64,000 bases of DNA from Liolophura sinensis (lineage: Eukaryota; Mollusca; Polyplacophora; Chitonida; Chitonidae). The position numbers and the translations under genes were made by a program. The notes below the pieces were generated by a model, which was not told where the DNA came from, did not search any database, and saw only the letters and a program-made list of their open reading frames with translations. This document shows, one piece after another, positions 8,201 through 46,590 of this stretch (position 1 is the stretch's first letter; the number at the start of each line of letters is the position of its first letter). The stretch is from positions 32,839,265 to 32,903,264 of the forward strand of contig NC_088303.1 in the NCBI RefSeq assembly GCF_032854445.1. Reading direction: 5' to 3'.

Positions 8201-11200
8201 TCTTTTGTGATATTAAAGATTAAATCATATCCCCGTTTCTGACAGTGCTACTTTTTTCAAATTTTTGTTTCTTTCTTTATTTGATTGGTTGGAGGAAACT
8301 GGGCTGAGCCCGTGGGAAACCCACGACCATCCGCAAGTTGCCGACAGACCTTTCCACGTAGAACTGGAGAGGAATCCAACATGAGGTGGTCTTGAAATCA
8401 CAGCCACCTCACTGGCGAGAACAACCCTTCTTAAAGTTTTTAGTACAATACTAATCTTAGTCATATTCTCTTGTAGTCACGTGACCTCATGACAATATTA
8501 CTTTAAATTTAGGAACTTCTGTTATAAAAACATAATTCAGACCATTCGATGTATGCTTATTTGTTGTACATATTGCCCGGCTACACCAGTTAGACAGATT
8601 AGTCTGAAAATCCATTGCCCAGCAAGCCATTCTATTTTTTAAATAATTATGACGTCACCCGGGGAAATGTGGTTTTGACATCGAAACCAAGCTTACAGAG
8701 TTTAACATTAGGAATTAGAAGAAGTATTCTATCAGCATTTTCTTAACAAGCCAATCTTTCGCTGTGTAGAGCTCGTGGTGTCATGAGAAGCAAGTTCAAT
8801 AATGAATATCCATGATAACTTGAAAAAACAGACTTGAACAATTAGAACCTGATATACATTATGCGCGGTCCTTCGGAAATCAGCCCCGAATTATTCCGTA
8901 CTCCCTGAGATGTGTTCATTTAATCAAGCTAGCGTCTGCCTTGATTTACCGAGCCATATTAACTGTTTAAAACTCTAAAATTTCCTTCATAAAAATGCAT
9001 GATTAATGGTTGAGTCAGATTCCATTTAAGTTATTGACACTGACAGGAGTTCAAAACAACATGCGGTGTATAGAACTCAAGTATTCCACAATAGACGTAG
9101 ACGTACTAGCGCAAAAACTTAATTCCCTTCGGATCGACGTGTTACGGGTTGTCGAGGAGTTGGTCATTTTGAGACAAAATAGGACTCATAGAAATTAGTG
9201 GCGAAACAACAACAACATAGGCTAGATCGATCGGCTGTTTGGCTTCTTTGGCTATCACCGATGTTGCCTGACAACACAGTGACTTTCCGCTGCCTGTTCG
9301 TTTCAATACAAGCACATCGATCTTCAGTCATAGCACTGCTTATTGCTGATATTTAATGTTGTGTCAGGGAATAAATCGGATCCGAACCTACATGCATTCA
9401 AAGCAAGGAAATACACGCCTGTAAGTGACGATCAGTGATTGGCTGGAAATGCGCCGGCGGAAGTTTCTGAAAAATTTTACACGTACAGAAAAACACGGGT
9501 GATTACGAAGCCTATTACAAGTATCAACCTTGCTGAGAGGAAGATGTGAGATATCCATATGTCCCGAAAATGGTCGGCTATTTTCGACAAGTGTTAAAAC
9601 CTATCTGTAAGTTAAACCTGATGTCTGTAATTAAAACTTGACATATCTGTGAGCTAAATCTGACATATCTGTAAGTTAAATCTGACATCTCTAAGTAAAT
9701 CTTGACATTTCTGTAAGTAAAACCTGACATATCTGTCAGTAAATCTTGACATATCTGTAGGTAAAACCTGACATAGATGTATGTAAAACCTGACATACCT
9801 GCAAGTGGAAACAGACGTGTAAGTGAAAGCATACATATCTTTAAAACTGACGTATTTTTAAGTATAAACAGATATGTCTGTTAGTCAAATCTGACATATG
9901 AGTACGTGAGAACTGTCATATTCTCATCTGTCTCACCCGTCTCTTAATATCATCTCAATCTTAGGGTCACGGGTATCCTGATTTTGTAACCACTGAGGGT
10001 GATTTGTGTGAGCAGTCCAGTGGCTGATGAGTTTTTCGCGAGCCTTCAGCTGCACGAACTTCTTGTTCCTCAGAAACATCAGCAAGTGGCGGGCGTCTGG
10101 AAAGATAACACAGTGATGTATGATGAGGCAGAAAGTGGTGGGCGTCTGGAAAGATAACACAGTGATGTATGATGAGGCAGTATGTGGTGCGCGTCTGGAA
10201 AGGTAACACAGTGATGTATGATGAGGCAGTATGTGGTGCGCGTCAGGAAAGGTAACACAGTCATGTATGATGAGGCAGTAAGTGGTGGGCGTCTGGAAAG
10301 GTAACACAGTGATGAATGATGAGGCACTAAGTGGTGGGCGTCTGGAAAGGTAACACAGTGATGTATGATGAGGCAGTAAGTGGTGGGCGTCTGGAAAGGT
10401 AACACAGTGATGTATGATGAGGCAGTAAGTGGCGGGCGTCTGGAAAGATAACACAGTGATGTATGATGAGGCAGAAAGTGGTGGGCGTCTGGAAAGATAA
10501 CACAGTGATGTATGATGAGGCAGTAAGTGGCGCGCGTCTGGAAAGGTAACACAGTGATGAATGATGAGGCAGTAAGTGGTGGGCGTCTGGAAAGGTAACA
10601 CAGTGATGTATGATGAGGCACTAAGTGGTGGGCGTCTGGAAAGGTAACACAGTGATGTATGATGAGGCAGTAAGTGGCGGGCGTCTGGAAAGATAACACA
10701 GTGATGTATGATGAGGCAGTAAGTGGTGGGCGTCTGGAAAGGTAACACAGTGATGTATGATGAGGCAGTAAGTGGCGGGCGTCTGGAAAGATAACACAGT
10801 GATGTATGATGAGGCAGCAAGTGGCGGGCGTCTGGAAAGGTAACACAGTGATGAATAATAAGGCAGTAAGTGGCAGGCGTCTGGAAAGGTAACACAGTGA
10901 TGTATGATGAGGCAGTAAGTGGCAGGCGTCTGGAAAGATAACACAGTGATGAATGATGAGGCAGCAAGTGGCGGGCGTCTGGAAAGGTAACACAGTGATA
11001 TATGATGAGGCAGTAAGTGGCGGGCGTCTGGAAAGATAACACAGTGATGAATGATGAGGCAGTAAGTGGCGGGCGTCTGGAAAGATAACACAGTGATGAA
11101 TGATGAGGCAGCAAGTGGTGGGCGTCTGGAAAGGTAACACAGTGATGAATGATGAGACAGTAAGTGGCGGGCGTCTGGAAAGGTAACACAGTGATGAATG

Positions 11201-13499
11201 ATGAGGCAGTAAGTGGTGGGCGTCTGGAAAGGTAACACAGTGATGAATGATGAGACAGTAAGTGGCGGGCGTCTGGAAAGGTAACACAGTGATGTATGAT
11301 GAGGCAGTAAGTGGCGGGCGTCTGGAAAGGTAACACAGTGATGTATGATGAGGCAGTAAGTGGTGGGCGTCTGGAAAGGTAACACAGTGATGAATGATGA
11401 GGCAGTAAGTGGCGGGCGTCTGGAAAGATAACACAGTGATGTATGATGAGGCAGTAAGTGGCGGGCGTCTGGAAAGGTAACACAGTGATGTATGATGAGG
11501 CAGTAAGTGGTGGGCGTCTGGAAAGGTAACACAGTGATGAATGATGAGGCAGTAAGTGGTGAGCCTCTGTGAAGTAACAGAGATGTGTGAGGAGACAGCG
11601 AGTGGTGAGCGCCTTGAGAGATGTCACAGAGATGTGTAAGGTGAAAACAGATGGTGAGCTTCTAGGGAGATAACACAGAGATGTGTGAGGAGAAAGCAAG
11701 TTGTGAGCGCCTAGAGAGATAAAAAAAAAACATGCGTGACATGAGAGCAAGCGGTGAGCGTCTGGAGAGATAGCAAACAGATACATGAGGATACAGTAAG
11801 TGGCGAGTCTGAAGAGAAGTATGATCAGACAGCAAATGGCGAGTGATAGGAGAGATAACACAGAGATGTGTGAGGAGGCAGCAAGTGGCGAGCGTCTGCA
11901 GAGATAACATAAAGATGTACAAGGATACAGCAGACGGATGCGATATGTATTATTCAAAATAAAAAGCGGAGGGTATTTTATATAGATGAGGAATAGCTTT
12001 GTCAATATTGAATATGTTCAGTTAGATGTACAGTTCAAGAATATCTTCTGAGAAAGCAAACGATATACGGAAAAGCTTTAATCTTAATTTAATCTTTCAA
12101 ATATACGTAAACAGACTGAGAAGGTGAAATGGAAATTTTAACAGAAATGTACCTGGATCTGATTCACGAACATTTCATGCGTTACACCTGTAGGGTTTAA
12201 CGCGTCTTAAACACATTAACTGTATCATTTATTCTGCATGGCATTTGCACTATTCCTTGTTCTGCTAGGGGGCGCCTAACGTTGCTTGTTTTAAGCATAT
12301 ACATAATCAGTCGGAATGAAAACCTGACTGGGGTAAATTGGCAGAAGACCGTAAATCACCGGTAACGTGTGACCATTTGTAAAATATTATGTCATCACTG
12401 CTCTGGTTTTACCCTCTAGTCATTCGTGTTGTGACACTCTGTCTTATGCCTTGTGGCTTCTTTTAACAGTCAGTCTAGTTCATAATTATTCCTTCTCTAT
12501 CGTAAGCTATCTAAGTGATAAACCACTATATTTGACTCGGCAGATGACGAAACGAAAGCGAGCAGGGATGAACCCGATCTGTGCTAAGCAGATATTACTG
12601 GGTCAAGTTTGCTTGTAATGTGTGTAAGCACAATGCTCCGCTCGTTCTCCAGGCCAGGACAGTGGTCTCAGACTGTCAATATGTCAAACAAATATTGCCT
12701 GTGGACACATCAACAGGTGGATCAGGGGGACCAGTGAGTCAGTGAGTGAGGTGAATCTCACCTGTAGGACACTTTAGCCAGTGAATTAGAGTGACCAGTG
12801 AGTCTGTGCGTGACGCTAATATCACCTGCGAGACACTTTAGCCAGTGGATCATTGCGATTAATGAGTCAGTGTGTGACGCTAATCTCACCTGTGAGACAC
12901 TTTAGCCAGTGGATCTTTGCGATCGATGAGTCAGTGTTTGACGCTAATCTCACCTGTGGGACACTATCGCCAGCGAATCAGAGTGACCAGTGAGTCACTG
13001 CGTGACGTTAATCTCACCTGTGGGACACTTTAGCCATTGAATCAGAGTGACCAGTGAGTCTGTGTGTGAGGCTTACCTCATCTTTGGGACACTTTAGCCA
13101 GTGAATCAGAGTGTGACCAGTGAGTCTGTGGGTGAGGTTCATCTCACCTGTAGGACACTTTAACCAGTGGATCATTGCGATCAGTGAGTCAGTGCGTGAC
13201 GTTAATCTCAACTGTGGGACACTTTAGCCAGTGAATCAGAGTGACCAGTGAGTCTGTGCGTGACGTTAATCTCACCTGTAGGACACTTTATCCAGTGAAT
13301 CAGAGTGACCAGTGAGTTAGTGCGTGACGTTAATCTCACCTGTGGGACACTTCAGCCACTTTTTCTGTTGAAGAATCCACTCGCGGAAACTCCTCATGGC
13401 TGCGAGTCTCTCCTTGGCGGTTTCATTCAGTTCACGTTTAGCCTGTTCTTCTCTCTCCACGTCCAGACTACATATGTAACTCTCTAGATCATCAGACAT
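5296..13499 (-). CDS. CRAL-TRIO domain lipid-transfer protein (alpha-TTP/clavesin-like), gene A, 320 aa
   Basis: Seven exons read by eye: 13499-13340, 10096-9937, 7905-7844, 7485-7286, 6866-6756, 5934-5811 and 5441-5296, all with GT-AG ends and intron phases 1,2,1,0,0,1. They total 963 nt, with ATG at 13499 and TAG at 5298-5296. The start is set by alignment with genes B and C: MSDDLESYICSLD against [12 protein letters not shown]. Residues about 1-75 form the helical CRAL-TRIO N region (DARHLLMFLRNKKFVQ). Residues about 108-272 form the lipid-binding domain, ending RFRFHGKSLSTVYEHIDKHL. Family knowledge: such proteins bind a hydrophobic ligand and shuttle it between membranes; the ligand here is unknown. 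It is clearly more diverged than B and C (for example LFILLPGYDSQGHR against [13 protein letters not shown]). Intron 1 carries a splice-site minisatellite at each end. An upstream in-frame ATG at 13509-13511 would add four residues and is less likely. Confidence 0.9.
6439..6495 (-). mobile_element. SINE family 1 fragment (3' tail)
   Basis: Only the (aaat)n tail and the 'cttgagtacggcgtagaact' end remain, within intron 5 of gene A. Confidence 0.7.
6500..6670 (+). repeat. dispersed repeat family 5, reference copy
   Basis: Core 'gacgacagtgtgatagatag', then 'gggtgaaatacggcctcttg', then 'taagcaaaattagg'. Related copies lie at 23975-24065 and 49725-49990 (same orientation) and at 12235-12470, 37375-37610 and 58280-58560 (opposite orientation). 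No coding capacity and no tRNA-like head; class unknown. This copy is in intron 5 of gene A. Confidence 0.6.
8265..8430 (-). mobile_element. SINE family 1, internally deleted
   Basis: The tail end joins directly to the 'ggaggaaactgggctgagcc' body. The segment with 'cttgagtacggcg' is missing. Lies in intron 2 of gene A. Confidence 0.75.
9598..9925. repeat. about 23-bp minisatellite in gene A intron 2
   Basis: A degenerate tandem array of units like 'aaatctgacatatctgtaag'. It begins about 10-40 bp inside intron 2, so exon 2 of gene A is flanked by tandem arrays on both sides. Unlike the 49-bp array on the other side, I see no exon sequence in the unit. Confidence 0.85.
10097..11570 (-). repeat. 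49-bp minisatellite carrying the gene A exon 2 splice acceptor
   Basis: Read on the transcribed (minus) strand, each 49-bp unit contains 'TGTTACCTTTCCAG' followed by 'ACGCCCGCCACTT', the intron 1 acceptor plus the first 13-17 bases of exon 2. The period is exact: the 'gcgtctgg' motif falls at 10093 (the real junction) and every 49 bp up to 11514, giving 29 intronic copies with no indel. All but one keep the AG; the exception reads 'cgtcagg' near 10242. Peptides in the transcribed frames repeat PDARHLL, the start of exon 2. All three frames of this strand are open through the array. Confidence 0.95.
11571..11935 (-). repeat. degenerate distal part of the 49-bp array
   Basis: About eight diverged copies of the same unit with indels. 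One near 11880-11905 still reads CTCTGCAG then ACGCTCGCCACTTGCTG on the minus strand, so it also carries the acceptor and about 17 exon bases. Decay increases away from the exon. Confidence 0.8.
12235..12470 (-). repeat. dispersed repeat family 5 copy
   Basis: 'ctgctagggggcgcctaacg', 'aaatcaccggtaacgtgtga' and 'catcactgctctggttttac' match the copies at 37375 and 58280. Lies within intron 1 of gene A, between the two splice-site arrays. Confidence 0.55.
12715..13339 (-). repeat. 64-bp minisatellite carrying the gene A exon 1 splice donor
   Basis: On the transcribed strand each unit contains TGGCTAAAGTGTCCCACAG followed by GTGAGATTA. This is the last 19 bases of exon 1 (WLKCPTG) plus the intron 1 donor. 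Nine full units run from the boundary at 12761/12762 to the true junction at 13339/13340, a distance of 578 bp (nine 64-bp units plus one 2-bp insertion). Seven of the nine keep the GT; the other two read AT and TT at the donor. Translated frames repeat WLKCPTGE. Use of an intronic copy would add an early in-frame stop: the exon 1 frame reads GEINVTH and then stops. Confidence 0.95.
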
Positions 13500-13542
13500 T
13501 GTTGTGAACAAAATCTCGCTGAGACTGAGGAATTAAAAGAGA

Positions 13543-13622
13543 GTGAGATGACCTATCGAAGGCAAGTAAGCTGCAACATCCGAACCATTATACTGATACG
13601 GGGTCAACCAGTTTTTACACTG
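13543..13622 (-). mobile_element. SINE family 3 fragment
   Basis: 'cgaaggcaagtaagctgc' and 'ccattatactgatacggg' are reverse complements of the family 3 body. It lies just upstream of the gene A start codon, in its 5' UTR or promoter region. Confidence 0.7.
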
Positions 13623-16281
13623 TCACATCGCACAAGATGGCGATCATCATGTAATAAAACTTATTCTATCAGTAAGCCGGTGCATGGACAATAACAATCA
13701 ATGTCTTAAACACTTTTTATGTATCGAAAACAACACAAAGTTGTTTATTCAACTTATATTCCCAAACTGGGTAAAATGAGACGCAAACGTATAATGAGGT
13801 GTATAGAAATTATACTCTGTAATGGCTGACATGAACAGTAACTTCGAGTTATCAAATTACATCTTATTCAGATACTCAGGTACAGTTCAGATGTTTAAAT
13901 TAGCTTTTAACCCATATGATGTTGTCTTGTAATAACAGATGAAACTTACTGTTTGCGTGATTTACCGGGTCTATTGGTCGTGCCTGTCCGCAGTTTAAAA
14001 CGTACACGATATACGAGTGTACAAACTGAATATTATGCGCAGGTAATTCACACCCAGGCACTGCGTGCAGGTATGTTCTGAGAAAACCAAGAGGCTGCTG
14101 GCTTAGGATAAACGTGTATGGTCAGAATTACAGAATTATAAGCAGATTTTGTTGGCGTTATCAAGCACATATATCTGGGCCCTCAAGGCTGTGTGAACAG
14201 CATATATGCAGTAGAGCATGTCATTCATAGGGCAAGAAAAAATATCAACAGATTACCGGGTACTATTTTTGTGGAGCTGACGAAGCAAATAATTACAAAT
14301 AAGAAAAATAAATTGGTTTCCCATACAGTCGTAGCGTATATTTCAAATCAGCGCAAAACAACAATCAAGAAAAGTAGAATATGATGTGGGGTGTTAAAAA
14401 AAGATGAGATGATAACAAACAGACGTACCATTGAATCAGAGGGTTAGCTGTGATAGTCTATAAAAAGATAGTCAAATAAAGATCTATATTTTGACTGATG
14501 AAGAGCGAGTTCATGTGTCATCTAGAGAATTGCCCGCGGGAACGCCGTTTTATTTCATGCACATGATTGTTGAGAGTAAACACTGTACGTGTGTGTAGAC
14601 ACTAGACAGTCCTCGGCGTGATGTATAGGCCAGGCGCTAACAAGACCAACGTTATGACATTTATAAGTAATCAGTGTTAATTCACTGATAAACGGAACTT
14701 AACAGCTTCCTTGCCCAGCATTGTTGCTGTTGTTATTATTATTATTTCATATGTCCTATGAACCTGATTGCCATTTTATAATTGTAACATGCGAAAGTTA
14801 GCAATGGCTGCGACAGTCTGCAAAAGTCGATGTTTTACAGTCAAGCCCTGCTGAAGACGGTGTACGTACCATATGGGAAGATATTTAAAATTCAAATAGA
14901 ATGTAATGTAATACATAACTATTCTACTTTATTCCCTGGAAAATATATATCGTATAAGAAAAGACCTACTGAGATATCAGAGTGTACTGTCTATGAATTG
15001 TTCAAGCATGACGTATTGAACATTGTGATGCTGAACCGATCATGCGTTCTTATTGACACTCGTAATTATCTGACATCAAATCACTACATGTAGGTACCAT
15101 TGTTCTCATATGGATGACATTTCTTCCTCTCTTGAACGATGCTTTGTAGAGCGCAATTGGGTTGGGTTTCTTTTCTCTCGCCGTTGCGTCTTTGAAGAAG
15201 TATTGTTAAGGGGGTTTACTGATGAAATATTAATTCCCTGTAAGACGATTCGAATTAATACTGATTCTTGAGATCTATATGTCTCTTATATCCGACGTAT
15301 ATACCTGAATCCGCATTTGATGTAGCATTTTAATACAAGTGTAGTTGGTATAATCACGGCAGATAAATAGTAGTATTGCGGCAATGCAGATCCGCTAACT
15401 GACTGCGGACGTTATTGCTGTGAAGCACGTCGATAGCGCTGCAGCCACGCCCTGTGGGGAATCACGAAAAGCGGATAGAGGCTGTCACTGCCACTGCTGC
15501 ACACGTGGATACCTAGGCCTTTGTGAGAACTCATATCGACAAACATAACGGGTCATTTCCACAGGTAAGACTCACACCACATATAGCTGCTACCTCTTCA
15601 AAGATCGTGTCATATTGGTCAGTTAAACATGTGAAGCGTTACATATTACTGCTGAATGCCAGATAATGTGACTTCGAATCACGGTGTGAAAGGCACAGTC
15701 CACTGAATGGATTTGCGATTTTTGCTGTTGGAAATGCATGTGCATGTGATTGTAGTAGTCTTCCTTAACAAGTCGACATTTCTGCTTAAGCACCTAAACT
15801 AATTCGGGTCTGTGCTACATGGCCAAGACGGTATCGTATTTTCTCGTTCATTCCAAAGAACAAATGTCAGTTCGGCTTGTATCCGAGTCGCCATTACACC
15901 AGAAACTAAACCTCATTAGTATATGTCACATTTTACGAACTACAACAGTACGTAATAATGTTTTATTTTTCATCTTTGTTACATTGATTCCTTTGTATTC
16001 GTTGAGAAGTAAAAAAAAATTACGACCGTATTCAGACCTTTTGTTGGTTTCATACAGGCTATGAGAATTAAATACTTTCTTTAAATCATAAAAGATTTTA
16101 CGCTACGATCATTTTAAAGAAATGAACGGTAATTGAGCTACACCGTAAATTAATATATTTTCAAAGTAAGGTCCAAATGACGTGAATATGGGCGACATGG
16201 GTGATTAGTTCTCGAAGGATTTTACGCAACATTTTCCAGAAGTGCAGTGTAATTGAGTTATAACATCAGCTTTATATTCAG
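13623..16281. other. unassigned intergenic DNA
   Basis: Upstream region of gene A. I see no exon-like segment with paired splice signals and no repeat family shared with the rest of the window. Confidence 0.35.
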
Positions 16282-16620
16282 TCATATGACGAAGAGTAGT
16301 CATTAGGTGTATGCTCATACACTGTGTGTTCTTGTGACAGGGCGAGTCCACGCTGCCAATGTGCTGCCGCCACTGAAGTATCATGTCAAAGACACCAGAC
16401 ACAGCATGATACTTCAGTGACCCCACCAAGTCACATTAAACTGGCACCGGGTCAACCAGTTCTGTTTCCTTGCTCCAGCCTCTCAATGTTTAGAGCCAAG
16501 CAAGGCAGCAACAAGCACCATTTTTAAAGTATTTGTATGGCCCGACCTAGGTTTGATCGAAGCACTTTGACAGCTAGGCCTTGAAGTCGGATGCTCTAAC
16601 TATTAGTCTACCAAGTGGGG
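16282..16620 (-). mobile_element. SINE family 2, with internal inverted duplication
   Basis: Nearly full length, with head at the right ('gctctaactattagtctacc'). Unlike other copies it contains 'cactgaagtatcatg' (about 16371-16385) and its reverse complement 'catgatacttcagtg' (about 16405-16419), which could form a 15-bp stem with a 19-base loop. Confidence 0.8.
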
Positions 16621-17280
16621 AAATGCGAATGTGCAGGCAGATAATTAGAACTGTAGAAAAGCTAGGGAAATTTTATTTGATATTGCTTCCATCATGTCGT
16701 AGCTGAGACATCAACTCTAGTGTAGGCGATTTCTCCTTGTTGTAAATGGAGGGAGTAATTGCCTATAATTATTGTTGGACATCAACCAGGGTGGCCGTCT
16801 TGTCCGTCCGGCCTGTGCGCACGCCAAGAGCTGTCCCCGCAGGTCGTTGTTGAATTGCTGGAAGATGAACGCAACGATCCGGAATATCCGTATAAAGGAC
16901 ACCTCTGACGGGAAAGGTTACATCTACACACGTAAGTTGACTGCCCTTATTAATAAGTTGTTATTTTGTGACGAATTTTATTTCCAGCTGTGACAAAGAA
17001 CTGTGTATGCCTCTTTCTTTGTTCTCGACTTATCTTTGGGTGGGTCAATCAGGTTGTTGAAACGCTGTGTCTTAACATGGGCCATACACTTAATGACTGG
17101 TCTGAGTGACCGACCAATACTGCATGGAGTTTTTTCACATTCAGCTGCTGTGAATTTGAGCTTTGAGCCTTGTACTAATATTTCTCAGTAAATATCGGTA
17201 AACATGATGTATTTAGTTATGACATGAAGTTTTGGGCCATTATGCCCTCTAAAACTGATCTACATAAGGTTATCTTTCCT
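16621..17280. other. unassigned DNA
   Basis: Nothing recognised. Confidence 0.3.
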
Positions 17281-17452
17281 AGATTATTTATTTATTTAAA
17301 TGTTTATATTTTATTGGTTTATTTGATGTTTTACACCGTACTCGAAAAGATTTCACTTAGCATTATGGTAGGGGGAAGCCCTGGGATAATGACCATCCAC
17401 AGGTTAGTGCCAGACCTCTTCACTTACGATCGGAGAGGAAGTCAGCATACAA
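17281..17452 (-). mobile_element. SINE family 1, degenerate
   Basis: 'gatgttttacaccgtactcg', 'cattatggtagggggaagcc' and 'cgatcggagaggaagtcagc' match the body. The head is missing. Confidence 0.7.
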
Positions 17453-19124
17453 GATGTTATTTGTCATTTTCAGGATAAGTCACGTCGGAGTATCTATGCT
17501 TTTGCATTACGCAAAACATACAAATTTGTACCAAATACATAATCTGTTTTGCCATCACTATGAAAACACAACATTTTGTCAGTATAGCTGATTATTTGTC
17601 TGTCGTAGTGCAAATGAGGTTGAATCCTCAAAACCAGAATCCTCGAAGCGTCATTGCATATTTCACACTTATGCTCCTTTTTCTTCTGGACCGACGATCC
17701 AAGGTCCCAAGGCTGTATGTTGATTCCGTTTTGAAAAATTCCATCCGTTTGTTCCAAGGAGGTTTACGTTTAGTTCTGTGAAAAATAGATTGGTGAGATT
17801 GTCTGTGTTTCTGTTTGTTAAAAGATCTCCTCGGTTAAGGTCAGAGCTTTATATTGGTAAGATGTCGGCGACTGATGCTGAATCCCTCATCACTAGCCAG
17901 AACAGATGTAACCTTTATTCGATGTATATATGGACTTATATATATATGTCCGGTATGAAAGCACTGTTATTATTACAATTTATTATTATTATTATTAGTG
18001 CAATGGCCGTTGAAAATAATTCATAGCTGCCACACGTGGCCTCTACTTCATGTTCATTTCACCGTTAAAGGGCACCAAGCCCTTTTTGAAGATCTGAGGG
18101 ATTACGTTTTTTTAAAAACCCCTCATGGAAAAGGATTTGCCCGTTGAAAAGATGTTTGATGTCGTCAAAGCATGCCATATTTTCATACATATGTATTAAC
18201 ACTTCAAAACAGCAAGCAAGTATGAAATCGATCGCATAAATTAACGACTGTGAAGAAAATCGAATAGGAGAGAAATGGAGATAATGAAGGGCAGACGTAC
18301 AGGCAAGGATTCCCTTGTTGTTAAGATGCGGAATATTTTTGCTTCCATTCAATCACACCTTTGTCACTTGGTGCTTTGCTTGTCGATTTGCGTTCTGCAT
18401 TGTCCACGTATTGCTTGTGCTGTGCGAGACTTTACTTATCTCGTTTGTGTGGTATTCATACATTACCTCCCTTGTTACATTAAGTACCAATGGACTGATC
18501 TAACATTGCGTCATTGTGGTGTGCTAGGACAAGGTCCCAGATATAACCTCGAAGCTTGCATTGATTCCAGAGTGTAAAACACTACAGCATATAGCATACA
18601 GAACACAGAGAGCTTACGATATATTATGCCCTTGTACTAATGAACTAATGGTTTAGTGCTTGCTTCCCTTACACGGTTGGTTGCTTTGGAATCTCTCATA
18701 TTGATGTCTCCATTGTAGTATATAAAGCTTTATGCACGGTAGAAAAGCGATATCGTTTTATCCCACTGTATGCTTGACAACCCGTCAACTGTCAGGTTAG
18801 TTTGTTGTTTTGATCTGCTTTCTGTAATCATTCGCCCATTGGCGTTTTCACCATCGACCGCTTGGTGAATCGAAAAGGTCAGGCGGTTATTCTTGGTTTT
18901 ATAACCCCAGCTATGATCTGGAACCAGAGCTACAGTACTGGGATCACAGCCCGGAGCACACCTTTGAGAAATAGAGGCATTTTATCAGGAGATCGCAGTC
19001 ACCTGATAGTATGATTTTTGCTCTTATCCAAGTATAATACGCATAATATAGTAATAATATGGATAGTGCCTTGAGGCCTAGTAACTCATCTCGGCATACG
19101 AAAGTTCTTCCAGCAAATTGGGGA
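17453..19124. other. unassigned intergenic DNA
   Basis: Several short open frames on both strands overlap each other. None has splice, domain or paralogue support. Confidence 0.3.
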
Positions 19125-19243
19125 TAATCGTGGGTTTCCCCCTGGACTCAGCCCGATTTCCTCCTACCATAATGCTAGCCGCCTTCCTATAAGTAAAATA
19201 TTCTTGAGTAGGGTGTGAAAGATCGATAAATAAATAAATAAAT
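19125..19243 (+). mobile_element. SINE family 1, 3' fragment
   Basis: 'aatcgtgggtttccccctgg' through 'cttgagtagggtgtgaaag' and an (aaat)n tail. Confidence 0.75.
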
Positions 19244-19548
19244 CTCGGCATACAAGAGAGCTCAGGACGCTATTGAACTCAACTGCTCGTATGGAGCTGG
19301 TCCAAGTCGATGGGGTCCACGCGACTGGAAGATTCACCGTCATACACTTAAATACTGGAGTACAAGTCGCGTCGCTTTTGCCCATACACGAGCGCGCGCG
19401 ACCGGACGCATCAGCCGAGCTGAGTCTAAGGCTTTTATGTATGCTGATCGTCCAGTGGCGTTGGGACAGGACGTGTTAGTTCGACGGCGGCACTGCGGCC
19501 GTTCACATGGTGTTACACAAAGTTTGTTACATATCACTTGTCTTCAAC

Positions 19549-19806: not shown

Positions 19807-19851
19807 ACCGCCATTATGAGGGTGTATGTTTGTTCGTTATTTGCCAGATTA

Positions 19852-20912: not shown

Positions 20913-20924
20913 TAGGGACTTAGA

Positions 20925-21125: not shown

Positions 21126-21149
21126 TACACACGCCTAACAATTTGTCGA

Positions 21150-21946: not shown

Positions 21947-24900
21947 ATGGACGCAGTGCCCACGGACGCATCAGAGCCTCCCTGGACGTACAGTGACATG
22001 GGTAAGGCGATTTCAGGAAACCGTCAGCTATTTCATACCATGTCATTATCGCTCAGTGACTCGAATCTTCGCGAACATAATTACTCAGTCTAAGCCTGTG
22101 GCCGTCGATAACTCCTGACGTTCGTCTGTGTTGTCAGCCTAAGAGTTCCGTGTGGACATGCTGCACCATATTTTTATACACACACACGATTAATTTCACT
22201 TTCTAGCAAACTTTTACCTCCAATCGTATAGAACAAAGTATCGGCAAAATATTTACATCCGATATTGTACTTTAATGCCTAATTCAGGATTGCGTTTTCA
22301 GTTCAGTTGTTTTTTGCCATTCTAATGAAACAAATTTGGATTATATGAGAGGATATCTCCATCTGGCGTTGTTGTTGTTATCATGTCACAATTAGTTCAT
22401 GGTTAACATAGCGGCACTTGATTATAGTGTTAGCGTTGCAGTGGGCATAGCGATGTGTAAAATCCCCCTCCTTCGGGTTACAGTTTAGTTCTGTTATTGT
22501 CTATTGTGTAATCCTCGGATGTAGCACTCTGTAGCTATTTCAAAACATGACAATGGCCACCGTCTATGCACTATTGATCCAAGCTGTAGGATCAGACAGA
22601 TCAGATTGAAAGGTTAAATAGAGACGTGCAGTATTTAGCTGGACTAATTTTGTACCACGTAAAACACAGCTTTCGTGTTACAATCATATTACCCGTGACA
22701 GAGGAATGGATGAAAAACTAACATTACACACTTGCTGTTGGCAGTTCTGCCATCGTGTATTACTTTGCCAGCATTGCTGGATCAATATTCAGCTTCTCGT
22801 GCCTATGGATCGATTTTATCATACATGCAACAATGATCACACGGCGTCCGGATAAAGGTAATTGTCAGCAGGGAACATCAACACTGAAGTAATGAGCAGG
22901 TTTTCCTCATCAGTATTTTGCTGGTAATGTTCAAGTCTGCCTGATGAGTACTCTGCTGATAATGTGCAGGTCTTTATAATATCTGCTCTGTTGGTAATGT
23001 GCAGGTCTTCGTAATGAGTACTCTGTTACCTGTCTGTTGTTAGCCTGTTCGAATCCAACTCTCGCAGTTTCAGCTGCAGATTTAAGTCAGGAGTACTTGG
23101 GGAAAGGTAGGTGATTTACCGAGAGCAATGCGATTTCTTTCACCCATAAACATGTCCGTCGTCGTATATAAGTGAAAAATTCTTGAGGACGGCGATAATC
23201 ATTAACCTATCAATCAATCGATCAATCAGTCATTCACTGTTTCCAGGATCGTCAGAGTGGCACCTCACCTTTCCTCAGGCTAATGGGTCCCGCCAGTCCC
23301 CAATCAACCTGAACTCTCGGGACGCCGTGTACGACAGTGTCCTCAACCTCAACCCGCTGACACTGAACTATGCGACATCCAGGGAGACGGATATCTACAA
23401 CGTGGGACACACCATCGTCGTGTATCCCAGATACAAACCCAGTAAGTTAAGCCCTCTAAACAAGACCTACATGCAGTAACGAAAGATGTACCTTTCAAGA
23501 GAAACAAGAGAAAAATGACATGCGTTATGCGGGCATGGATATTACGTTTTAATCCACGTTAGTGTTGTTACAATAACACAGACCAGGTAGTGTCGCTGCA
23601 CGCGCATGCGTGTTTCGAAAATGGGCTCTACGGTCAAGAACAGCGATCTCCTACAAGATGAACAACAAGACTGTTAGGCCGCTCACCACGGCTGAAACGG
23701 AAGTTATGGTGTTACCGAAATGTATTCATCAGGTGTTCAGAGTTCGTGTTCTGATTCAGTTTCTGACCTTTCGCTCGTAACACCTTACATCAAGAGGTTC
23801 CCAGAAATCTGTTGCATTGAAGTACTTTTTTCGATCAATCCGGCTTGATTCATACATCAACAAGCCCGCTTTCGTATGACTGGTACAATCCTGGTTACAG
23901 CGTGAAACACCAGAACAACTTGTTCATACGGTAAAAAAAACAATTAATCAGAATTCAAACGTTTCTTTTAACCAGAACGAAAACGTACCGTGTGATAGAT
24001 AGCTAGTGGTTACACGTCTCACTTAACCGGTGAAATACGGCCTCTTGGTAATTTTCCTTACACTCAGTCTTGCTATATCAGTTCATCAGATCCCTTACGA
24101 CATAAGACTCTTATTGCATCGTACAGCGCGAGCTGCAATGGCATGAATTTTACGACAGAATTTCAAAAGTCACGAACGAGTTGCGAAAGCGTTACGATCA
24201 ATGACTTCACGTTTCTAACATTCTTTGATTTATTGAAGAACTTCAAAGGAATGATAACAATCTCCGGACTGCTTTTATGATAGACTTAGGAATAACTTAT
24301 CATGGGTTACGATTCTAAGTGAATCTACACGAACCACCACTAGCTTCTTACGGCAATCCTGTTGTCGCAAGCCCGTTCGTGAATGCACGGGAAGATTTGC
24401 AAATGATTCATAATTGATTCGTGAAACAGACTGAATAACATACAAAAAAATTGGGGACCATTCTAAACTCTATCATAATTACATCATAAGTTTATCCTAC
24501 ATTCGTATTCATTCGCAAGTACACGTATTTCGAATCTATTCTGCCGTTACGAAATAACAATGCTTCCGGAATGATTACGCTCCTGTTACGATTGCAGTCG
24601 ATACATCTGCGAATTTTTATTTACAAAGCTTTTACGAATACTTATGAATGATTACAGATTTACATCCTGTTACGAAATTATTTAACATTTTGAAATTGTC
24701 ACCCACATGAAAAATAGAGTGGGAACAAGGCTTAATACAAAAAAAAGGAATGTAGTTATGTTAAAAACTATTTATTAGACGGTATTGGTCCATACAGATT
24801 ACTTAATATATTGTGTTGTCATCGTTAAAATGCAATAACATATATTTATCCTCAAACATAGCTTACAACAAATCTTACACCAAACCGCACTTGCCGCTCA

Positions 24901-27900
24901 GTTATTTCCAAACCACTTTGATGTGACTTTAAATCTGATTAAGTCGACAGCACACGAAACATAAGAATGCATAAGCGAGAAGCATATCAGTTACCCTGAG
25001 TAACCATGTAACGAATTTATCCTGCAAAGACCCATCAATTCAGTGCAGAAGACCGATGTATAGGTGAAATGCTTTAGTGACATGGATGTGACAATTGCAG
25101 TCAAAACCCAAAAAGGGACATAACCTACTCAGGAATTGCAGGATTCAAGACTATATCTGCACCCCATATGACCTTTGTTGTTCAATGAAAATCGAAGTAT
25201 TTTATCTGATGCGGGATAAACGGCAAGGTGACACTCTCGCAGGGATTGCATAATACTGATGCATGTCAATAAACATTTACTAACACGCAGTAATAAAATT
25301 TTCATTTCATTTCACGTTTGAACCTGTTACTAAGGATACTTTCTGCTTTGTTACAGTCGATACTGGTCTCCGCAGTGATTTACAACAGAGGTCAGGTAAG
25401 AGTAGATTCCATACAATATTTTTACAAAAAGGGATACAGTTGTGGCTGAACTCGGAGATGGTCATGGGTTTCCCCTGATTTTTCTGCCCGGTTTCCTCCC
25501 ACCTTAATGCTGCCCGCCGTCGTATAAGTCTAATATTCTTGAGTACGGCCTAAAACACCATCAAAAAAAAGAAAGAAAGAAATAGAAGTCATGTTTGCGA
25601 CAAAGGAATCGACAGAAATAATGCCTTGAAAGACAACATAACATTGAAGCAGACATAAGCAGAAAGGCCATTTAAAAGTGTACTTTTACTTGCATTGTTA
25701 GATTTCCTTTTTACTGGATTAAATGGAGTCAAATATATGAATTATAAGGTGAGCTTTATGTATACCATAGTGATGCTGAATATAGCCACTCCACTATGAG
25801 ACTTCTCATATGACGACGAGGAGTCTTTGGGTGTGTGTACATACATTGTGTCTTGTTGTGGCAGGTCGCGTCCATGACGCCAAAGTATTGCCGTCACTGA
25901 AGTATTCACACCCCACCCATATTATACTGACACCGGGCCAACCAGTCATGTTTCCTTGCTCTAACCTCTTGCTCTGTGCTGAGCGCCAAGCAAGGAAGCA
26001 ACAAGTACCATTTTTAAAGTCTTTGGTATGACCCGACCAGTGACATTTAAGGTGAAACCCTGATTAATACAGAAACCGTTGATTGCTTTAGAAATGTTCA
26101 TGCCCTTTCAGAAGGTCTAGTTGCCACATATCACCACAATGACGTTTTAAGGCGTATGTCATTTTTTTTTACGTAACGCATGCGTCAGCAAAACATTGTA
26201 TAAGATGGCTTTAAACTAAAGCACTCAGTTAATTGAGTTTGTACGGCAGTGGGAAAAGGATCGGATTAAAACCCATAAATCTCCTTTCCTGCATTATTGA
26301 AAGTCACACGGGAAGTAATTTTAGTAACAATATCATCGTTATTAGGAAGTACAGGTGATCTCTGCCATTCTTCGGCTCTGAAATGTGTGACATATATCCC
26401 TAAATTATAATCCTAAATCACGACCACACTGTCAATAATCTTCTGGTAACTCAGGAAGACTTAATGAGCCATTGCCGTAAAACCTTAATACAAGTATACG
26501 CCAAAAGCTCAGGCACTAGATTCTGAGCCGAGTCATCAATTCTGCACATGCATTATGGGGTACGCTAAGCATACGTTAAGCATGCACTTAACAGATGCGA
26601 AGGATAAATCTTACAACACTGAAGCAGTGGTTCTTTTTTCCTAGCAGCAAAGCGCAACGATTGATGCTATAATTACCAGTAATAAAAAATTCTCACACAT
26701 CAACCCTGCCCTCACCCTTCATGTTACCCACGGTGATTGTCCTGGTACCAGCTTGGGGTATCTTGATTAATTGTCACAACACGATAGAGGCAGTGTACAC
26801 AGAGTCTTTGAGTCAAATGAAAGTGAATCATTACGCGTGGTTTTGTAATACCTGGAATATGATTTGTAATACCTGGAATATGATTTACCCGTCAGCCTGA
26901 GCTAGCCATTACAAAGCGTACAGGTAGTTAGCGCTAGACACCTACTTGGTTGACAGCCAACAAGATCTACCTGCATTATACATTGCAGATTCTCTTTAGC
27001 AAGATGGATAGCAGGTAAACGATCCTCCTCCCTCCTCTGGATTCGGGATTCGGTATCCAGGGATGCGAGAGATCCAGGACGAAGTTTACGGTTAACACAC
27101 ATGCACACGTGTTTTAAAAACATTACCTAGGATTGTTGACTTCAGGTCAAGCTATAGAGAGGGATGTATTTGGTCCATTTTGGTACAGAACTTGGCTAGG
27201 CGTGCAGCATAAATAGCCAGAAACGGGTCCGACTGTACAAAGTCAATTTTGTAACCTGAACCAAATAAAAAGTTCTGAATTTCTTTCGGCAGTTTTTCCC
27301 TGTAAATTGCGAATACAAAATCTGAAAATTAACTGTGCTATACAACGAATGTACTACTTTTTTGGTAGCCAAAGGCTCTCTCATTTAAGTTGAGCGATTT
27401 TATGGGCTAAATGTTTGTGTTATAAATACGTGTTCTGAGCGGAAAAAACACAGAACAAGAAGAACAACAAAAATATTGCTGTCGGAAATTTAAATCTGTT
27501 TACACATAAAGCAAATAACTGCGTTATTGTTTGTGCAAAACATAAAATTTATATAACCACCTTACAGCAAAGCTTGCGACAAACTGTGTACGCTATCTGA
27601 TAAACACCTGTGCAGTTACATGTACCCATCTGTTATCAAAATGCAAAACACTGGAAACCGTAATAAATTGTTACCATGGCAACCGTCGGATACACTTATC
27701 TTCCTATTATCAGATTGATTGATGTTAAATGCTGACGTTTGAATCTGATATCAACCATTACGATAAAAGCGCTTTGAAAAAGTAAAACGTTTCTCCTTAC
27801 ATTCCCATTGTTGTTGATTACCCTTTCGCTTTTTACCCTTTATTTTATGCGCCTTGTCATTTAGACCCACCCTTTTTATAAACCAAACCACTGTAAACGA

Positions 27901-30560
27901 GTGGGATCTCCGTGACCAAGTCACTGGCATACACAGGGGTTCAGGAGCCTCTCACCAATGCGGGGTAATTGCTCATTCTGGCTCCCTATCCAAACGTGTC
28001 TGCCAGCAACCTGCCGATGGTGGTGGGTTTTACGCCAGCTTCTCCCGGTTTCCGCCTACCATAGTCCTGGCCGCTCTTGTATAGGTGAAATATTCTTGAG
28101 TACGGCGTAAAAACACCAATCAAATAAATAATATCATTAAAGATAAAAACATCCAATCAAGCCCTGGTCACATTCGTAACGTTTCAAAGTCGATGATGCT
28201 TCTTCTCGGCGTCTGCCTGGTTGCCTCCTATCATAATGCTGGCCGCCGTCAAATAAGTGAAATATTGTTCTTTTGGGCGTAAAACACCAATCAAATAAAT
28301 AAATAAGTAAATAAATAAATAAAAATGTAGATGAACCATATATATATTCCCTTTAATATTAATTTTGTTAATCCACTACACTGAAAACAAAGATAACCTT
28401 GTCGCCTCTCATCGTTCGAATATAGCATATTTCACACCTCGAGCCACACCCATCACAAATCAATTTCGGTCTTGTTTTATCTTTCATCGCAGTTATGTCC
28501 GGTGGCCCTCTACCAGTGGGGCACGAGTTCGAGCTGGCAGAGATGAGGTTCCATTGGGGACGGGAAGATACCAGAGGTTCCGAACACACTGTCAACTTCA
28601 AGGCCTTCCCGATGGAGGTAAATCCAAGGTTTATTGATTCATTTGTGACAGATCACTGTGAGCTTCTGTATGCTTCATACTACTTGGCGTCTGGAATTTG
28701 CTTCCGCAAATGATGCTCTGACATTTGCTTACTTCTCTGTACCTTTTCCTTATGTAGTTCATGTTTTTTTTTAACTAACGACAACTCGTTTCCCTGATGG
28801 CTCAGAACTGATGGCTATGTTGCTCAGAGACTTTTTTTTACACGTTTGCGCACATCCGGGTCGAAGGATAATTGTGACAACAAATAGCCTTGATCTGCTT
28901 TATTTCTGTGTTAAGTCGATCGTATCTGCAAACATGACGCACAAGATGTGTCTTGTAGAAATACACACGCTGGTGTGCAAAGTAAAGAGTACTGAATATA
29001 CAAATATGAACGTAGGGTAAGCAAACTTTTGATGAAATTAATTCATGCATAACGTCGGTTTTAAAAGCTTGAAAAACATACTTGCTGTAACACTGAAATG
29101 TTCATTTCATAACAATGCGCTTATATAATTCAAATACAATTACCATGACTACCAGTGCATGGATGCGTATTACCGGAATACATACAGAAATAACAAGGTA
29201 CATCAGCATATTTGTATAAATGTATACACGTTCAACACGTTGTATGTGAACGTCATCTTGATTGTCATTTGAGTACAATCCTCCTAAATGTCTTGTCACG
29301 TGGTAAAGTTATCCACCTTAATATGTTAAGTTCATGCCCCCTGAATATGTCACGTTCAGTCCTTCTGAATATGCCACAGTCATTCCTCCTGAATATGTCA
29401 CGTTCATTCCTCCTGAATAAGCCAAGTTCATTGCTCCTGAATATGCCATGCTCATGCCTCGTGAATATGTCACGTTCATTCCTCCCGAATATGTCACGTT
29501 CATTCCTCCTGGACATACTACGTTCAGTCCTCCTGAATATGTCACGTTTATTTCTCCTGAATATGTCACGTTCAATCCTCCTGAATAATCATTCCTCTTG
29601 AATATGTTACCTTCAGTCCTTCTGACTATGTTACCTTCAGTGCTTTTCAATATACTACTTGTATATTTCAGTCTCCTTGAATAAGATATGGACAGTTCTC
29701 TTGAACATGTTATGTTCAATCTTCCTGAATATGTTACCTTAAGTCCTCTTGAATGGGTCACTGTCAGCCCCCAGAATGTGTTGTCTTCAGTCCTTCTAAA
29801 TATCTTGTCAGTACTCCTCCTGTATATGTCACCATCAGTCCTCCGGAATATTTTGCCTTCAATCCGTCTGGATACGTTACCATTAGTCCCCCAGAATGGG
29901 TTGCCTCCGCCTATACATATACATATGGCTCAAGAATATCCGGGCAGGTGAGATGAGGGTGTGTGGCTTTGTGGATAGCGTGCTAGCGCAACACTGTGAA
30001 CCTGGAGCTCCGCACCAATGCCGTCACTGTGGGTTCAATTCCAGCTCATGCTGACTTCCAACCGGTTTTATGGGGGAATGTGTGCCAGCAACCTGTAATA
30101 CGTAATAGGCATGGCCGTGGGTTTCCTCCGAGCTCTGTAACATTTCCTCACACCATAATGCTATCCGCCGCCATAGAAGTGAAATGTTTTTGAGTGCAAC
30201 ATAAAACTCCAATCATATGAATAAATAAATAAATTAATTAATAAGGTGTGTATACAGACGATACAGCACCGTGTGAAGATATTGAATCCACAACACGACG
30301 AAATACCGGTGCACAAATATCCCACTGGATATCATGGCGAACACAGAAAGCCCTTTGCGTCAGCCCATGAATGTTCTCCCATGAATAGGCTTTGTTAACT
30401 GAACTAGACGGACTGGCTGTGACATGGTTCTTTAATTACTATAACACTGAAACTTCTGGGAAAGCTTGGCCGAAGATGAAACACATAGGTAACATTTTGA
30501 CATCCAGCATACTCGCTGTAGTGATTGTTAGGTCGGCTGACCAGCGATGAGATTTAATAT

Positions 30561-30599
<39 letters not shown>

Positions 30600-33500
30600 T
30601 TCGGTGTTTTGCGCTGTACTCAAGAATATTTCACTTTTACAACGGCGGCCAGCATTATGGTGGGAGGAAACCGAGTAGCACCTGGGGGAAACCCACGTTT
30701 ACCCGCCGGTTGCTGACAGACCTTCCACATACGGCCGTAGAGCAAGCCAGCATGAACTGGCTGACTGCGGCCGAATTGGTGGGAGGTTCCTGGGTCATTG
30801 CGTGAAATCTACGTTAATTTGTTTTACGCAGTACTCAAGAATATTTCACTTATACGAAGGTGGTCAGCATAATAGCGGGAGGAAACCAGACAGATCCCAG
30901 TGGAAATGCCAGATTACTGGCAGGCTTCCCCACATACAATCGCAGTGGAAGTCAGCACGAGCTAGCTCACAGCGATCGCTTTGGCGAGTGGCTTCTTGGT
31001 CATCAAACTTGCTCATAGGTAATACCGAACCTGATCGGGTGTTATTTGCATTTAATATACATAACATTTTATTTGCATGTCAGACGTGAAGTTAACCGTG
31101 AAGGATTTCTGATGGTAACAGTATGCAATGTATAATTTACAGCTCCATATGATTCACTGGAACACCAACCTATACACGAGTTTGGAGGATGCTCTTGGAA
31201 AGCCTCAAGGAGTGGCAATCATCGCCTTGTTTATACAGGTATATTTACTGGGGAATTACCTCCCTTGTGTCACTCGTAAAATAGCCAGTATCCCTTTTAG
31301 GTCAATTAACACCTGGCAGTCAAAATGTATAGATCTTGATTTTTTACATTATTAAATTGTAAGAAGATATAAAAACAAAGTAGATTATAAAACAATCCTC
31401 TCACCACGTTAATCCATTGTAGATCGGCCGGGAACATGCGGGGTTAAAGCTCATCACAGAATGCCTGGAGGATGTCCAACATAAGGTAGGTACACTGTCA
31501 CACCAAAATGCAATGTCCTTCCCATGTTTAGAGGAAATGAACTCGTATTCATTCTACTGATGCCCAATGTCACTGATCAACGACGTCAGGTTTCCTAATG
31601 GAAGTCCTGTCGGTTTTTATCGGTTTTATTTTTATATGTTTAGGTATTTAAAAAACAAACCCTACCGTGTACATCTATAGCTTAAAGTAATGATTTTAAA
31701 TAGTTAAATATTCTTTAAAGAAATGATTTTTTTCACACTATCACAACAGTTGTATGTTAGGTGGATCCATTAAGAGTGATTGTTTTTTTTTATTGGCTTG
31801 CCTGATTGGTGTTTTACACTGTACTCAAGAATATTTCACTTATACGACGGCGTCCAGCATGATGGTAGGGAAAGCCACGATCGTTCGCAGGTTGCCGCAA
31901 GACCCTTCCACGTACGACCGGAGAGGATACCAGCATGAGCTGGATTTGAACTCACATCCGCATTGGTGAGAGGCTCCTGAGTCCTTGCTCAGCGCTGGCA
32001 GGCTAATCCCCTCGGCCACGGAGGCCCCCTTAACAACCACTGGACTATCGATGCCGAAAAGAGAAAGCTTGGAAGCCTCAAAATCGCACGCAGCTCTGGT
32101 TTATATGCTAACAATTATATACGTTATTCCAAATTCATTTCTTTATTTAATGGCTCTGGCTATTTTTATCGCCTATAGTAGTTAGTATATATTTCCAGTA
32201 TATATACTACCCAATTTGTACCGTTTAGTACTCTGTATTAATACATCAGAAAAATTATAATGAACTTAATCCATCTGCACATACTACAGCTATTCTGGTT
32301 CCACAGAAACAACTCACTACTCAATCTATACCGTCAAGGAGTGTATCTCTTGCTGAAGGTGACAGTCTCTATGCCAATCATATCTCGCCATAGAATCCTG
32401 GCTCCGTCTTCCTCCGTTGCTACATTACACCACAACTTCTGTTATGGTTTCCACCCGCTATTGAAAATATTCAAATTGAAAATATTATTAACCGGTGATT
32501 ACCACTACATCTTTTTGTTCAGGGCAGGTCACGGACCATCTCAACTGCCTTCAACCCAAGCTACTTTCTGCCTGGTAAGTAAAGCGTTAAATTCTGTTTG
32601 TAAATTCGTCCTCAGATTACCGATTACTTTATTGTTAACCCGCTACTCAGAGATTATTCCTTTGTTGTTGATAGGATATTCAAAGATTACCGATTACTCT
32701 ATGGTAGACAGTATACTCAGAGATTACCGATCACTTTATTCAAGACCCATTCCTGAGAATTACTGCTTTATTGTAGACAGGGTACTCAGAGATTACCGAT
32801 CACTTTATTCAAGACCCATTCCTGAGAGATTACTGCTTTATTGTAGACCCCGTCCTCAGAGATTACTGCTTTACTGTAGACAGCATACTCAGAGATTACT
32901 GATTACTTTATTGTAGATCCCCTCCTCAGAGATTACTGCTTTATTGTAGACAGGATACTCAGAGATTACCGATTACTTTATGGTAGACCGGATACTCAGA
33001 GATAACTGATTACTTTATTGTAGACCCGCTGCTCAGAGATTACTGCTTTACTGTAGACAGGATACTCAGAGATTACCGATTACTTTATGGTAGACCAGAT
33101 ACTCAGAGATAACTGATTACTTTATTGTAGACCCGCTGCTCAGAGATTACTGGACGTATCCAGGGTCCCTTACAACACCTCCATGCTCGGAAGAAGTCAC
33201 GTGGTTGCTGTTCCGTTATCCGCTAACTGTTTCTCACTCTCAGGTAAAGCATTCAGCTTTGACATACTGTTATAAACGTTCCCAAGGCCCGTTTTACAAA
33301 GCCGTCGCAACACTACGCAAGGGCATTTACCATGAAGGAGTATCTCTTTACTACATGTTAACATATACGTTTCGTATACCCAAGGTGCAATTTACGATTG
33401 CTTCGCTAAACGGGCCCCTGGTGGCGTAATATGGTATCTCGTCCCTAAGGCGGTCTCGCTTTCAGATGAAGGTTAATTGGTCAAAATGGTCAAATCGAAC

Positions 33501-38285: not shown

Positions 38286-38289
38286 TATA

Positions 38290-46447: not shown

Positions 46448-46513
<66 letters not shown>

Positions 46514-46522
46514 ACACACACA

Positions 46523-46590
<68 letters not shown>

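Follow-up and report, generated by a model that had tools for sequence, protein, structure and literature searches.

Minisatellites that end on a splice junction and carry a piece of the adjoining exon in every unit raise the question of whether exon-intron borders are preferred sites of tandem duplication or whether they are struck about as often as any other sequence in a repeat-rich genome. Three such arrays (A, B and C) occur in the window analysed here, a stretch of 64,000 nucleotides from the chiton Liolophura sinensis (NC_088303.1, positions 32,839,265 to 32,903,264), to which all coordinates below refer. A sequence-only reading of this DNA had regarded them as products of a recurrent process centred on splice junctions and as a feature class without a name. 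We consider it probable (roughly 0.85) that they are instead mirages in the sense used for amphioxus genes, i.e., tandem duplications across an exon-intron border that are subsequently shaped by ordinary repeat turnover, with no process specific to junctions.

Junction arrays in a CRAL-TRIO paralog and in CA8

The geometry noticed in the sequence-only reading, with units composed of an intron edge plus exon bases and the real junction as the terminal copy, was found in all three arrays (Table 1), the exon overhang being 17, 18-19 and 22 nt in A, B and C, respectively, and thus 17-22 nt in the window rather than the 13-22 nt given there. The assignment to two genes also holds, but a single intron carries A at one end and B at the other, so that the three arrays represent two introns of two genes.

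Table 1. Coordinates of genes, introns and arrays discussed in the text
Feature	Position in window	Strand	Remarks
P1 exon 2	9937..10096	-	P2 exon 2 54% identical; junction preserves frame
Array A	10080-11940	-	49-bp unit, at P1 intron 1 acceptor
P1 intron 1	10097..13339	-	3243 bp; array at each end
Array B	12717..13358	-	64-bp unit, at P1 intron 1 donor
P1 exon 1 (CRAL-TRIO paralog)	13340..13499	-	Open frame once spliced to exon 2
CA8 exon upstream of array-C intron	32523..32574	+	Reads ..NPSYFLP
Array C	32614..33152	+	Basic unit ~37 bp; the real acceptor (33130/33131) forms the terminal copy
CA8 exon downstream of array C	33131..33243	+	Human CA8 comparison
P2 intron 1 (control)	45057..46009	+	Same position; array at neither junction
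P3 intron 1 (control)	57664..58802	+	Same position; array at neither junction

Array A takes in the initial 17 nt of P1 exon 2 (ACGCCCGCCACTTGCTG; exon start at 10096), to which each unit adds 32 intron nt. The junction copy is followed by 29 regular intronic copies and, farther from the exon, by diverged ones, the most divergent lying at the far end (36 matches in total, allowing at most 8 substitutions). At one site the array core carries A and the exon copy G. Most of the array is stop-free in all three minus frames and includes an ORF of 694 aa, which we set aside as a gene candidate and read as the outcome of a stop-free unit with a period of 49. Array B incorporates the final 18-19 nt of P1 exon 1 (TGGCTGAAGTGTCCCACAG), the real donor following directly after 13340 on the minus strand, and comprises nine intronic copies plus the junction copy. 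The P2 protein matches the Pfam family CRAL_TRIO (2.2e-22), but Pfam assigns no family to the first 106 aa of P1; the family identity of P1 therefore rests on P2 and on the shared exons (48% identity between the first exons of P1 and P2).

The exon portion of array C corresponds to the first 22 nt of the downstream CA8 exon. Comparison with human CA8 (PDB) confirmed the acceptor coordinate proposed earlier, since splicing there keeps the frame and the exon then reads DPLLRDYW.

Intron 1 of P1 has counterparts at the same position in P2, P3 and P4, with array-free junctions in P4 as well; none of five P4 junctions, counted apart from the sample described below, carries an array. The predicted lengthening of introns is borne out by these paralogs, in which intron 1 measures 953 (P2), 1139 (P3) and 1000 bp (P4) as against 3243 bp in P1. 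As the intron is common to four paralogs, arrays A and B did not create a new one.

A probable origin by duplication across the border

The unit phase, the real junction in terminal position and the array-free paralogs agree with the scheme put forward in the sequence-only reading, in which a duplication across the junction is followed by selection on the exon copy and expansion in the intron. A minisatellite would be born when a short stretch straddling the border is tandemly duplicated, presumably in a replication or recombination step; the copy joined to the exon would be maintained by selection on protein and splicing, while the remaining copies would come to lie in the intron, drift, and be multiplied and homogenised by tandem-repeat turnover. 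Growth of the array would then yield a longer intron filled with decoy splice sites. The exon is likely the source of the arrays, because exon C reads DPLLRDYW like human CA8 and P1 exons 1 and 2 match their paralogs; the same matches led us to reject the reverse direction, with the array as source and the exon as receiver.

Copy numbers were taken from one assembly and may be off, since no kind of sequence is harder to assemble than arrays. That the arrays as such are assembly artefacts, or unrelated satellites that abut the exons by chance, is nevertheless extremely improbable. The in-phase identity with the exon, ~17-52 nt long and present at some six independent loci, rules out chance abutment, and related genes show intermediate copy numbers (see below). 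In the 347 kb searched (~16 kb of it counted twice), units A, B and C each matched nothing but the array from which they came, and a dispersed-satellite reading was rejected on these grounds.

The class does have a name. Gene-by-gene accounts of amphioxus Adh3, the globins BflGb6 and BflGb9, TnC and PGBD5 describe mirages, minisatellite-like arrays in which an exon-intron border is tandemly repeated and which occur at either donors or acceptors; many units keep an intact AG or GT, the unit measures 150-160 bp (globin) or 10-72 bp (Adh3), and regular splicing is reported as undisturbed (PMC3087553, PMC3902484). The chiton arrays share with them a tandem unit spanning the exon-intron border, the occurrence at both 5′ and 3′ intron borders and the retention of AG or GT in many, not all, units. 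Amphioxus mirages are further characterised by concerted evolution within the array, from which the border copy is left out, and by copy numbers that are unstable between alleles. They reach up to ~36 copies, unlike BflGb6 with 3 and 6, and they extend the amphioxus accounts by unrelated arrays at both ends of one intron, a copy-number series among paralogs and a rate set against a matched null. The original Adh paper on mirages is reportedly that of Canestro (2002).

Partly similar cases are known in humans. The 31-bp VNTR of CBS, c.1444_1467+7(16_21), has a unit that spans the border like those described here (24 exon plus 7 intron nt in 16-21 copies, as we read the notation), but it is a single locus, polymorphic in people (PMC2630376). 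Variable internal tandem repeats at exon-intron boundaries of human segmental duplications are likewise boundary minisatellites that alter intron length and splicing, but they were found by paralog comparison, and half are located inside coding exons (PMC2812944). Tandem duplication also yields extra splice sites in the AGGT model of intron gain (PMC3443670; see also PMC4974935), but arrays A and B made no new intron, theirs being present in all four paralogs.

A copy-number series among carbonic anhydrase paralogs

The process proved to recur in the genome. Outside the window, junction arrays were found at 6 of 182 junctions, corresponding to ~3 independent births, and recurrent duplication across the junction followed by expansion is well supported. 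Four of these loci are tandem paralogs (the C1 cluster) with one shared origin and a 60-bp donor unit of ~51-52 exon and 8-9 intron nt, present in 1.9 (L019), 1.9 (L022), 5.5 (L023) and 14.5 copies (L018), and L016 and L020 carry a degenerate partial copy. The series displays the steps from a degenerate partial copy through ~2 and 5.5 to 14.5 copies and is, together with the decoy splice sites, a useful aspect of the system. L012 (69 bp) and L059 (47 bp) are further independent arrays, both at donors like array B, whereas A and C lie at acceptors; the exon overhang elsewhere in the genome ranges from ~17 to 52 nt. In a tree of 21 C1-cluster copies, picked by a fuzzy pattern that missed several visible copies, the exon copies stand apart from most array copies with low supports, and two array copies of L023 fall among the exon copies.

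Frequency at junctions and in the background

Are junctions then preferred birth places of minisatellites? Such a preference could stem from the splice-site sequence or from co-transcriptional splicing, for example through strand slippage at U1-bound or R-loop DNA. We examined 224 junctions from the window and from the carbonic anhydrase paralogs of the same genome, after removal of calls scoring below -1.5 (12 of 122 and 6 of 78). One of the 12 removed calls lay in an array, but a compound match had produced it. Missing from the window set are P1 exon 3 as well as the junctions flanking CA8 exon 1, and its P1 donor 7286 is a doubtful call. TRF alone detected arrays at 5 of 110 and 0 of 72 junctions; L059 was recovered by alignment, a scan in which one of the 224 junctions had too little flank.

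Altogether, 9 of the 224 junctions are spanned by arrays, which reduces to ~6 independent births. A simple coverage test, comparing 3 of 42 window junctions with the 17% of intronic points that lie in arrays, applies the wrong null, because the edge of an array stays put during expansion. The fair comparison takes random non-exonic points and counts those with a one-sided end copy, of which ~4.8 per 224 are expected; this null draws on the window genes and the 10-kb stretches only, to the exclusion of the surroundings of 40 further exons, and its non-exonic sequence may include intergenic DNA. Against it, the Poisson P is ~0.06 for 9 loci and 0.35 for 6 births. The window alone has 3 of 42 junctions with arrays versus 1.2 expected, in favour of a preference, but it was chosen because the feature was present; in the 182 junctions outside it the ~3.6 expected compare with the six loci and ~3 births given above. 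A cruder estimate from TRF units is more favourable (1.64 expected per 110 versus 5 seen; 0.67 per 42 versus 3 seen) and over all 224 gives ~3.4, P being ~0.01 when every one of the 9 loci is counted and 0.13 when the 6 births are. Conversely, any neighbouring copy is found at 12-13% of random non-exonic points but at 4% of junctions, and in the regions sampled minisatellites cover 13-17% of non-exonic points.

In this limited sample, one window chosen for having the feature plus one gene family, junction arrays are thus not clearly in excess of minisatellite density, the yardstick for refutation named in the sequence-only reading itself, and the special role for junctions suggested there is not supported. 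The 9 loci against 4.8 expected are compatible with a two-fold excess, and the cruder estimate leaves room for more. Even so, we regard a preference for junctions as improbable: the position of the arrays needs no special mechanism, since minisatellites are abundant and junctions are struck about as often as other sequence. Mirages would accordingly recur in this 609-Mb genome at about the rate predicted by its repeat density.

Decoy splice sites

The expected multiplication of splice sites is evident in both arrays of P1. The AG acceptor is intact in 28 of 29 regular intronic copies of array A, and 7 of 9 intronic copies of array B keep a GT donor in the corresponding position, six of which score equal to the real donor. 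Array A offers 33 other acceptor sites, 12 of which equal or exceed the real one in score. Decoy donors with scores of at least 3.0 within 1 kb number seven each in L023 and L018 and two in L012; L059 has two weak ones, and none remains at this threshold in L019 and L022.

So many intact sites might indicate that decoys are used and selected, for alternative isoforms or expression tuning, but intact sites are predicted by recent homogenisation anyway, and many other columns of array A are at least as well conserved as those of the AG. The frame stays open through exon 2 in only 12 of 306 donor-acceptor pairs of P1, the real pair included and none with a decoy donor, and in CA8 it is kept by one of 14 acceptors, the real one. 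Considering in addition the loci with few or no strong decoys and the paralogs that manage without arrays, selected use of the decoys appears very improbable. We infer that splicing ignores them, which in P1 and CA8 is suggested by these frame arguments. If the mRNAs are normal, P1 intron 1 would constitute a natural experiment on how the spliceosome chooses without local cues.

It is conceivable, at somewhat less than even odds, that mirages make up a few percent of all junctions in animal genomes rich in minisatellites, and that hundreds to thousands of introns contain decoys which match the real site in strength but are ignored. Junctions would then be unprotected from tandem duplication, introns would grow steadily and neutrally, and some introns, perhaps that of CA8, would have been made in this way.

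Has array C given rise to the CA8 intron?

Besides a measurable route of intron lengthening, the arrays provide material on which the mirage model of intron gain can be tested. In CA8 the intron itself might have been born by tandem duplication of an exon segment, with array C as its body. The array covers 517 of the 556 intron bases (TRF), the split exon matches as one piece in many other carbonic anhydrase genes of this genome, and the 15 "intronic" nt of the unit, set in register against the last nucleotides of the preceding exon, agree with them at 8 of 15 positions (top 0.5% of CDS 15-mers; gapped score P 0.025). This match is, however, weak and was sought after the fact, and the unit has no likeness in the 16 nt that follow the donor. 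Typical cytosolic carbonic anhydrases have 7 exons and human CA8 has 8, and the extra intron may therefore be ancient. In one other carbonic anhydrase gene (L028) an exon begins 14 nt before its YW, which could reflect the same intron; we read it as a probable loss of residues. On balance we judge a mirage-driven gain of this intron doubtful, though a shade less so than a preference for junctions. Array C may also include a weak degenerate copy reaching back to ~32590 (P 0.03-0.06).

Junction-spanning arrays and their direction of copying

In each of three junction-spanning minisatellites of the window (arrays A, B and C, see table) the terminal copy is the real splice junction, and a single intron of the CRAL-TRIO paralog P1 carries array A at one end and array B at the other. 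The sequence-only reading had described units that span the junction and grow into the intron; this geometry, as well as its coordinate for array C, is correct, as seen from the phase of the units and from the exon start at 33131, the only acceptor tested that both keeps the frame and gives the residues of human CA8. Because the exon sequences are constrained and common with the paralogs or with human CA8, the arrays probably derive from the exons rather than the reverse. No array was found at the junctions of the intron that in P2, P3 and P4 corresponds to the one carrying arrays A and B; this intron measures 953, 1139 and 1000 bp, respectively, versus 3243 bp in P1. The units of the three arrays match only their own arrays (347 kb of the genome searched, about 16 kb of it counted twice), and the most diverged copies of array A are those at its far end. 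Terminal real junctions, exon-to-array direction and the recurrence described below support the proposed tandem duplication across the junction followed by expansion.

Array A also yields, on the minus strand (window 9933-12017), an open frame of 694 aa, with long frames in the other minus frames as well, which an ORF-based annotation could mistake for a repeat protein.

Table. Genes and junction-spanning arrays (window positions unless a further stretch, L-number, is named)
Feature	Position	Strand or side	Description
P1, CRAL-TRIO paralog	13499 to about 5800	minus	exons common with P2
P2, CRAL-TRIO paralog	44900-48672	plus	Pfam CRAL_TRIO match, 2.2e-22
P3, CRAL-TRIO paralog	57507-63309	plus	exons common with P2
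P4, fourth CRAL-TRIO paralog	L066:7387-9532		follows, in a further stretch
CA8-type carbonic-anhydrase-related gene	21949-34657	plus	matches human CARP VIII, PDB 2w2j, 6.2e-104
Array A	10080-11940	P1 acceptor side	49-bp unit: 32 nt of intron and the opening 17 nt of P1 exon 2
Array B	12717-13358	P1 donor side	64-bp unit: end of P1 exon 1 (18-19 nt) + intron
Array C	32614-33152	CA8 acceptor	basic unit about 37 bp, including 22 exon nt
L059 array	L059:600-1153	carbonic-anhydrase donor	47-bp unit, about ten copies within the stretch examined, which ends inside the array

Recurrence and comparison with repeat density

From 108 matches in the genome (609 Mb, 632 contigs) we sampled twenty 10-kb stretches, which contain 62 matches to carbonic-anhydrase exons, plus another 40 exons flanked by 500 bp. 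Junctions were called by family matches and splice-site scores (110 of 122 and 72 of 78 retained), giving 224 with the 42 of the window, 223 of which were covered by the alignment scan. Junction-spanning matches numbered 13 at an alignment score of 24, 10 at 28 and nine at 32 to 40. Besides arrays A, B and C, the nine loci comprise L012 (69-bp unit, about 17 exon nt), L059 and four tandem paralogs in one carbonic-anhydrase cluster of contig C1, which share a 60-bp unit of about 51-52 exon and 8-9 intron nt in 1.9 (L019), 1.9 (L022), 5.5 (L023) and 14.5 copies (L018); L016 and L020 of the same cluster carry a degenerate partial copy of this unit. Counting the cluster once leaves about six births, of which four lie at donors and two at acceptors. 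L011, a would-be tenth locus at score 28, was taken as chance. The L059 array adjoins a diverged copy of the junction and its connection to the exon was found by alignment and missed by TRF; counts from TRF only are therefore too low.

Since expansion leaves the array edge unmoved, a fair null draws non-exonic points at random and counts those that fall in a terminal copy whose neighbouring copies all lie to one specified side. At score 40 such points make up 2.9% of those in the window genes and 2.0% of those in the carbonic-anhydrase stretches, so that about 1.2 + 3.6 = 4.8 cases are expected in 224 junctions, versus nine loci or about six births observed; outside the window, 3.6 are expected versus six loci or about three births. 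At score 28 (null 3.5% and 2.05%) about 5.2 are expected versus 10 observed. A cruder estimate from TRF units, 1.5% per junction, gives about 3.4 for all 224 junctions (1.64 expected versus five observed for the set of 110, 0.67 versus three for the set of 42), by which nine loci are an excess (P about 0.01) and six births are not (P about 0.13). The sequence-only reading had proposed a recurrent junction-anchored process, to be judged by whether such arrays exceed the expectation from minisatellite density; with nine loci, or about six births, versus about 4.8 expected, in one family and one chosen window, this process is unsupported. There may be a junction excess of two-fold or so, and from this family and window junctions are not clearly spared from such arrays.

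The class does have a name, although the sequence-only reading knew of none. Tandem copies of an exon-intron border are known as mirages, from amphioxus genes such as Adh3 and globins (PMC3087553), with cases described also in TnC and PGBD5 (PMC3902484); the 31-bp VNTR of CBS, written c.1444_1467+7 (PMC2630376), is by this notation a single case in humans, and repeats at boundaries are described for human duplications (PMC2812944). For junction-spanning arrays in another invertebrate genome, a literature search only partly aimed at the question found no report among the papers listed, which is weak evidence of absence; the nearest of these is a description of an earthworm metallothionein gene with intron 1 minisatellites and duplicated fourth exons.

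Decoy splice sites

Array A keeps the AG in 28 of 29 regular intronic copies, and array B has GT at the same place in seven of nine. Among the other 33 acceptor sites of array A (score at least 2.5), 12 equal or exceed the real P1 acceptor in score; of the 14 acceptors of CA8, three others equal or exceed the real CA8 acceptor. Decoy donors number seven each in L023 and L018, two in L012 and two weak ones in L059; splice-site scoring found none remaining in L019 and L022. In the larger arrays, local sequence therefore cannot choose the site. In P1 and CA8 the frame would be lost with most of the wrong sites: only 12 of 306 P1 donor-acceptor pairs, the real pair counted, preserve an uninterrupted reading frame across exon 2, all 12 with the real donor, and in CA8 the real acceptor alone is in frame. 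From these sequences we infer that wrong splice products would be rare or destroyed.

Origin of the CA8 intron

Array C makes up 517 of the 556 bp of its CA8 intron (TRF), with a possible further degenerate copy toward the donor (P 0.03-0.06), and this intron interrupts an exon matched whole in many other carbonic-anhydrase genes of the genome. Moreover, the 15 intronic nt of the unit agree with the preceding exon end at eight of 15 positions in register, in the top 0.5% of CDS 15-mers. All this would fit a more speculative reading, an intron gained via a mirage, with array C as its body. However, the intron may be old, because human CA8, described as having eight exons, exceeds the typical cytosolic carbonic anhydrase by one exon. 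Also against a gain, in L028 (C9:7775375-7776593) a carbonic-anhydrase exon begins 14 nt before its YW, which could mark the same intron; either residues were lost relative to the paralogs or an intron lies near that of CA8.

Genomic setting

The four clustered CRAL-TRIO paralogs, three plus and one minus, have intron positions in common, and the CA8 gene lies in between; it includes an in-frame exon of 39 nt (window 25357-25395) opposite a gap in human CA8. An 18-bp array of 44 copies (window 746-1538) has several frames open on both strands. A family of dispersed repeats marked by gattggtgttttacgccgtactcaagaatatttcac and a (TTTA)n end (e.g., window 38085-38290 and 40434-40690) presumably resembles molluscan V-SINEs.
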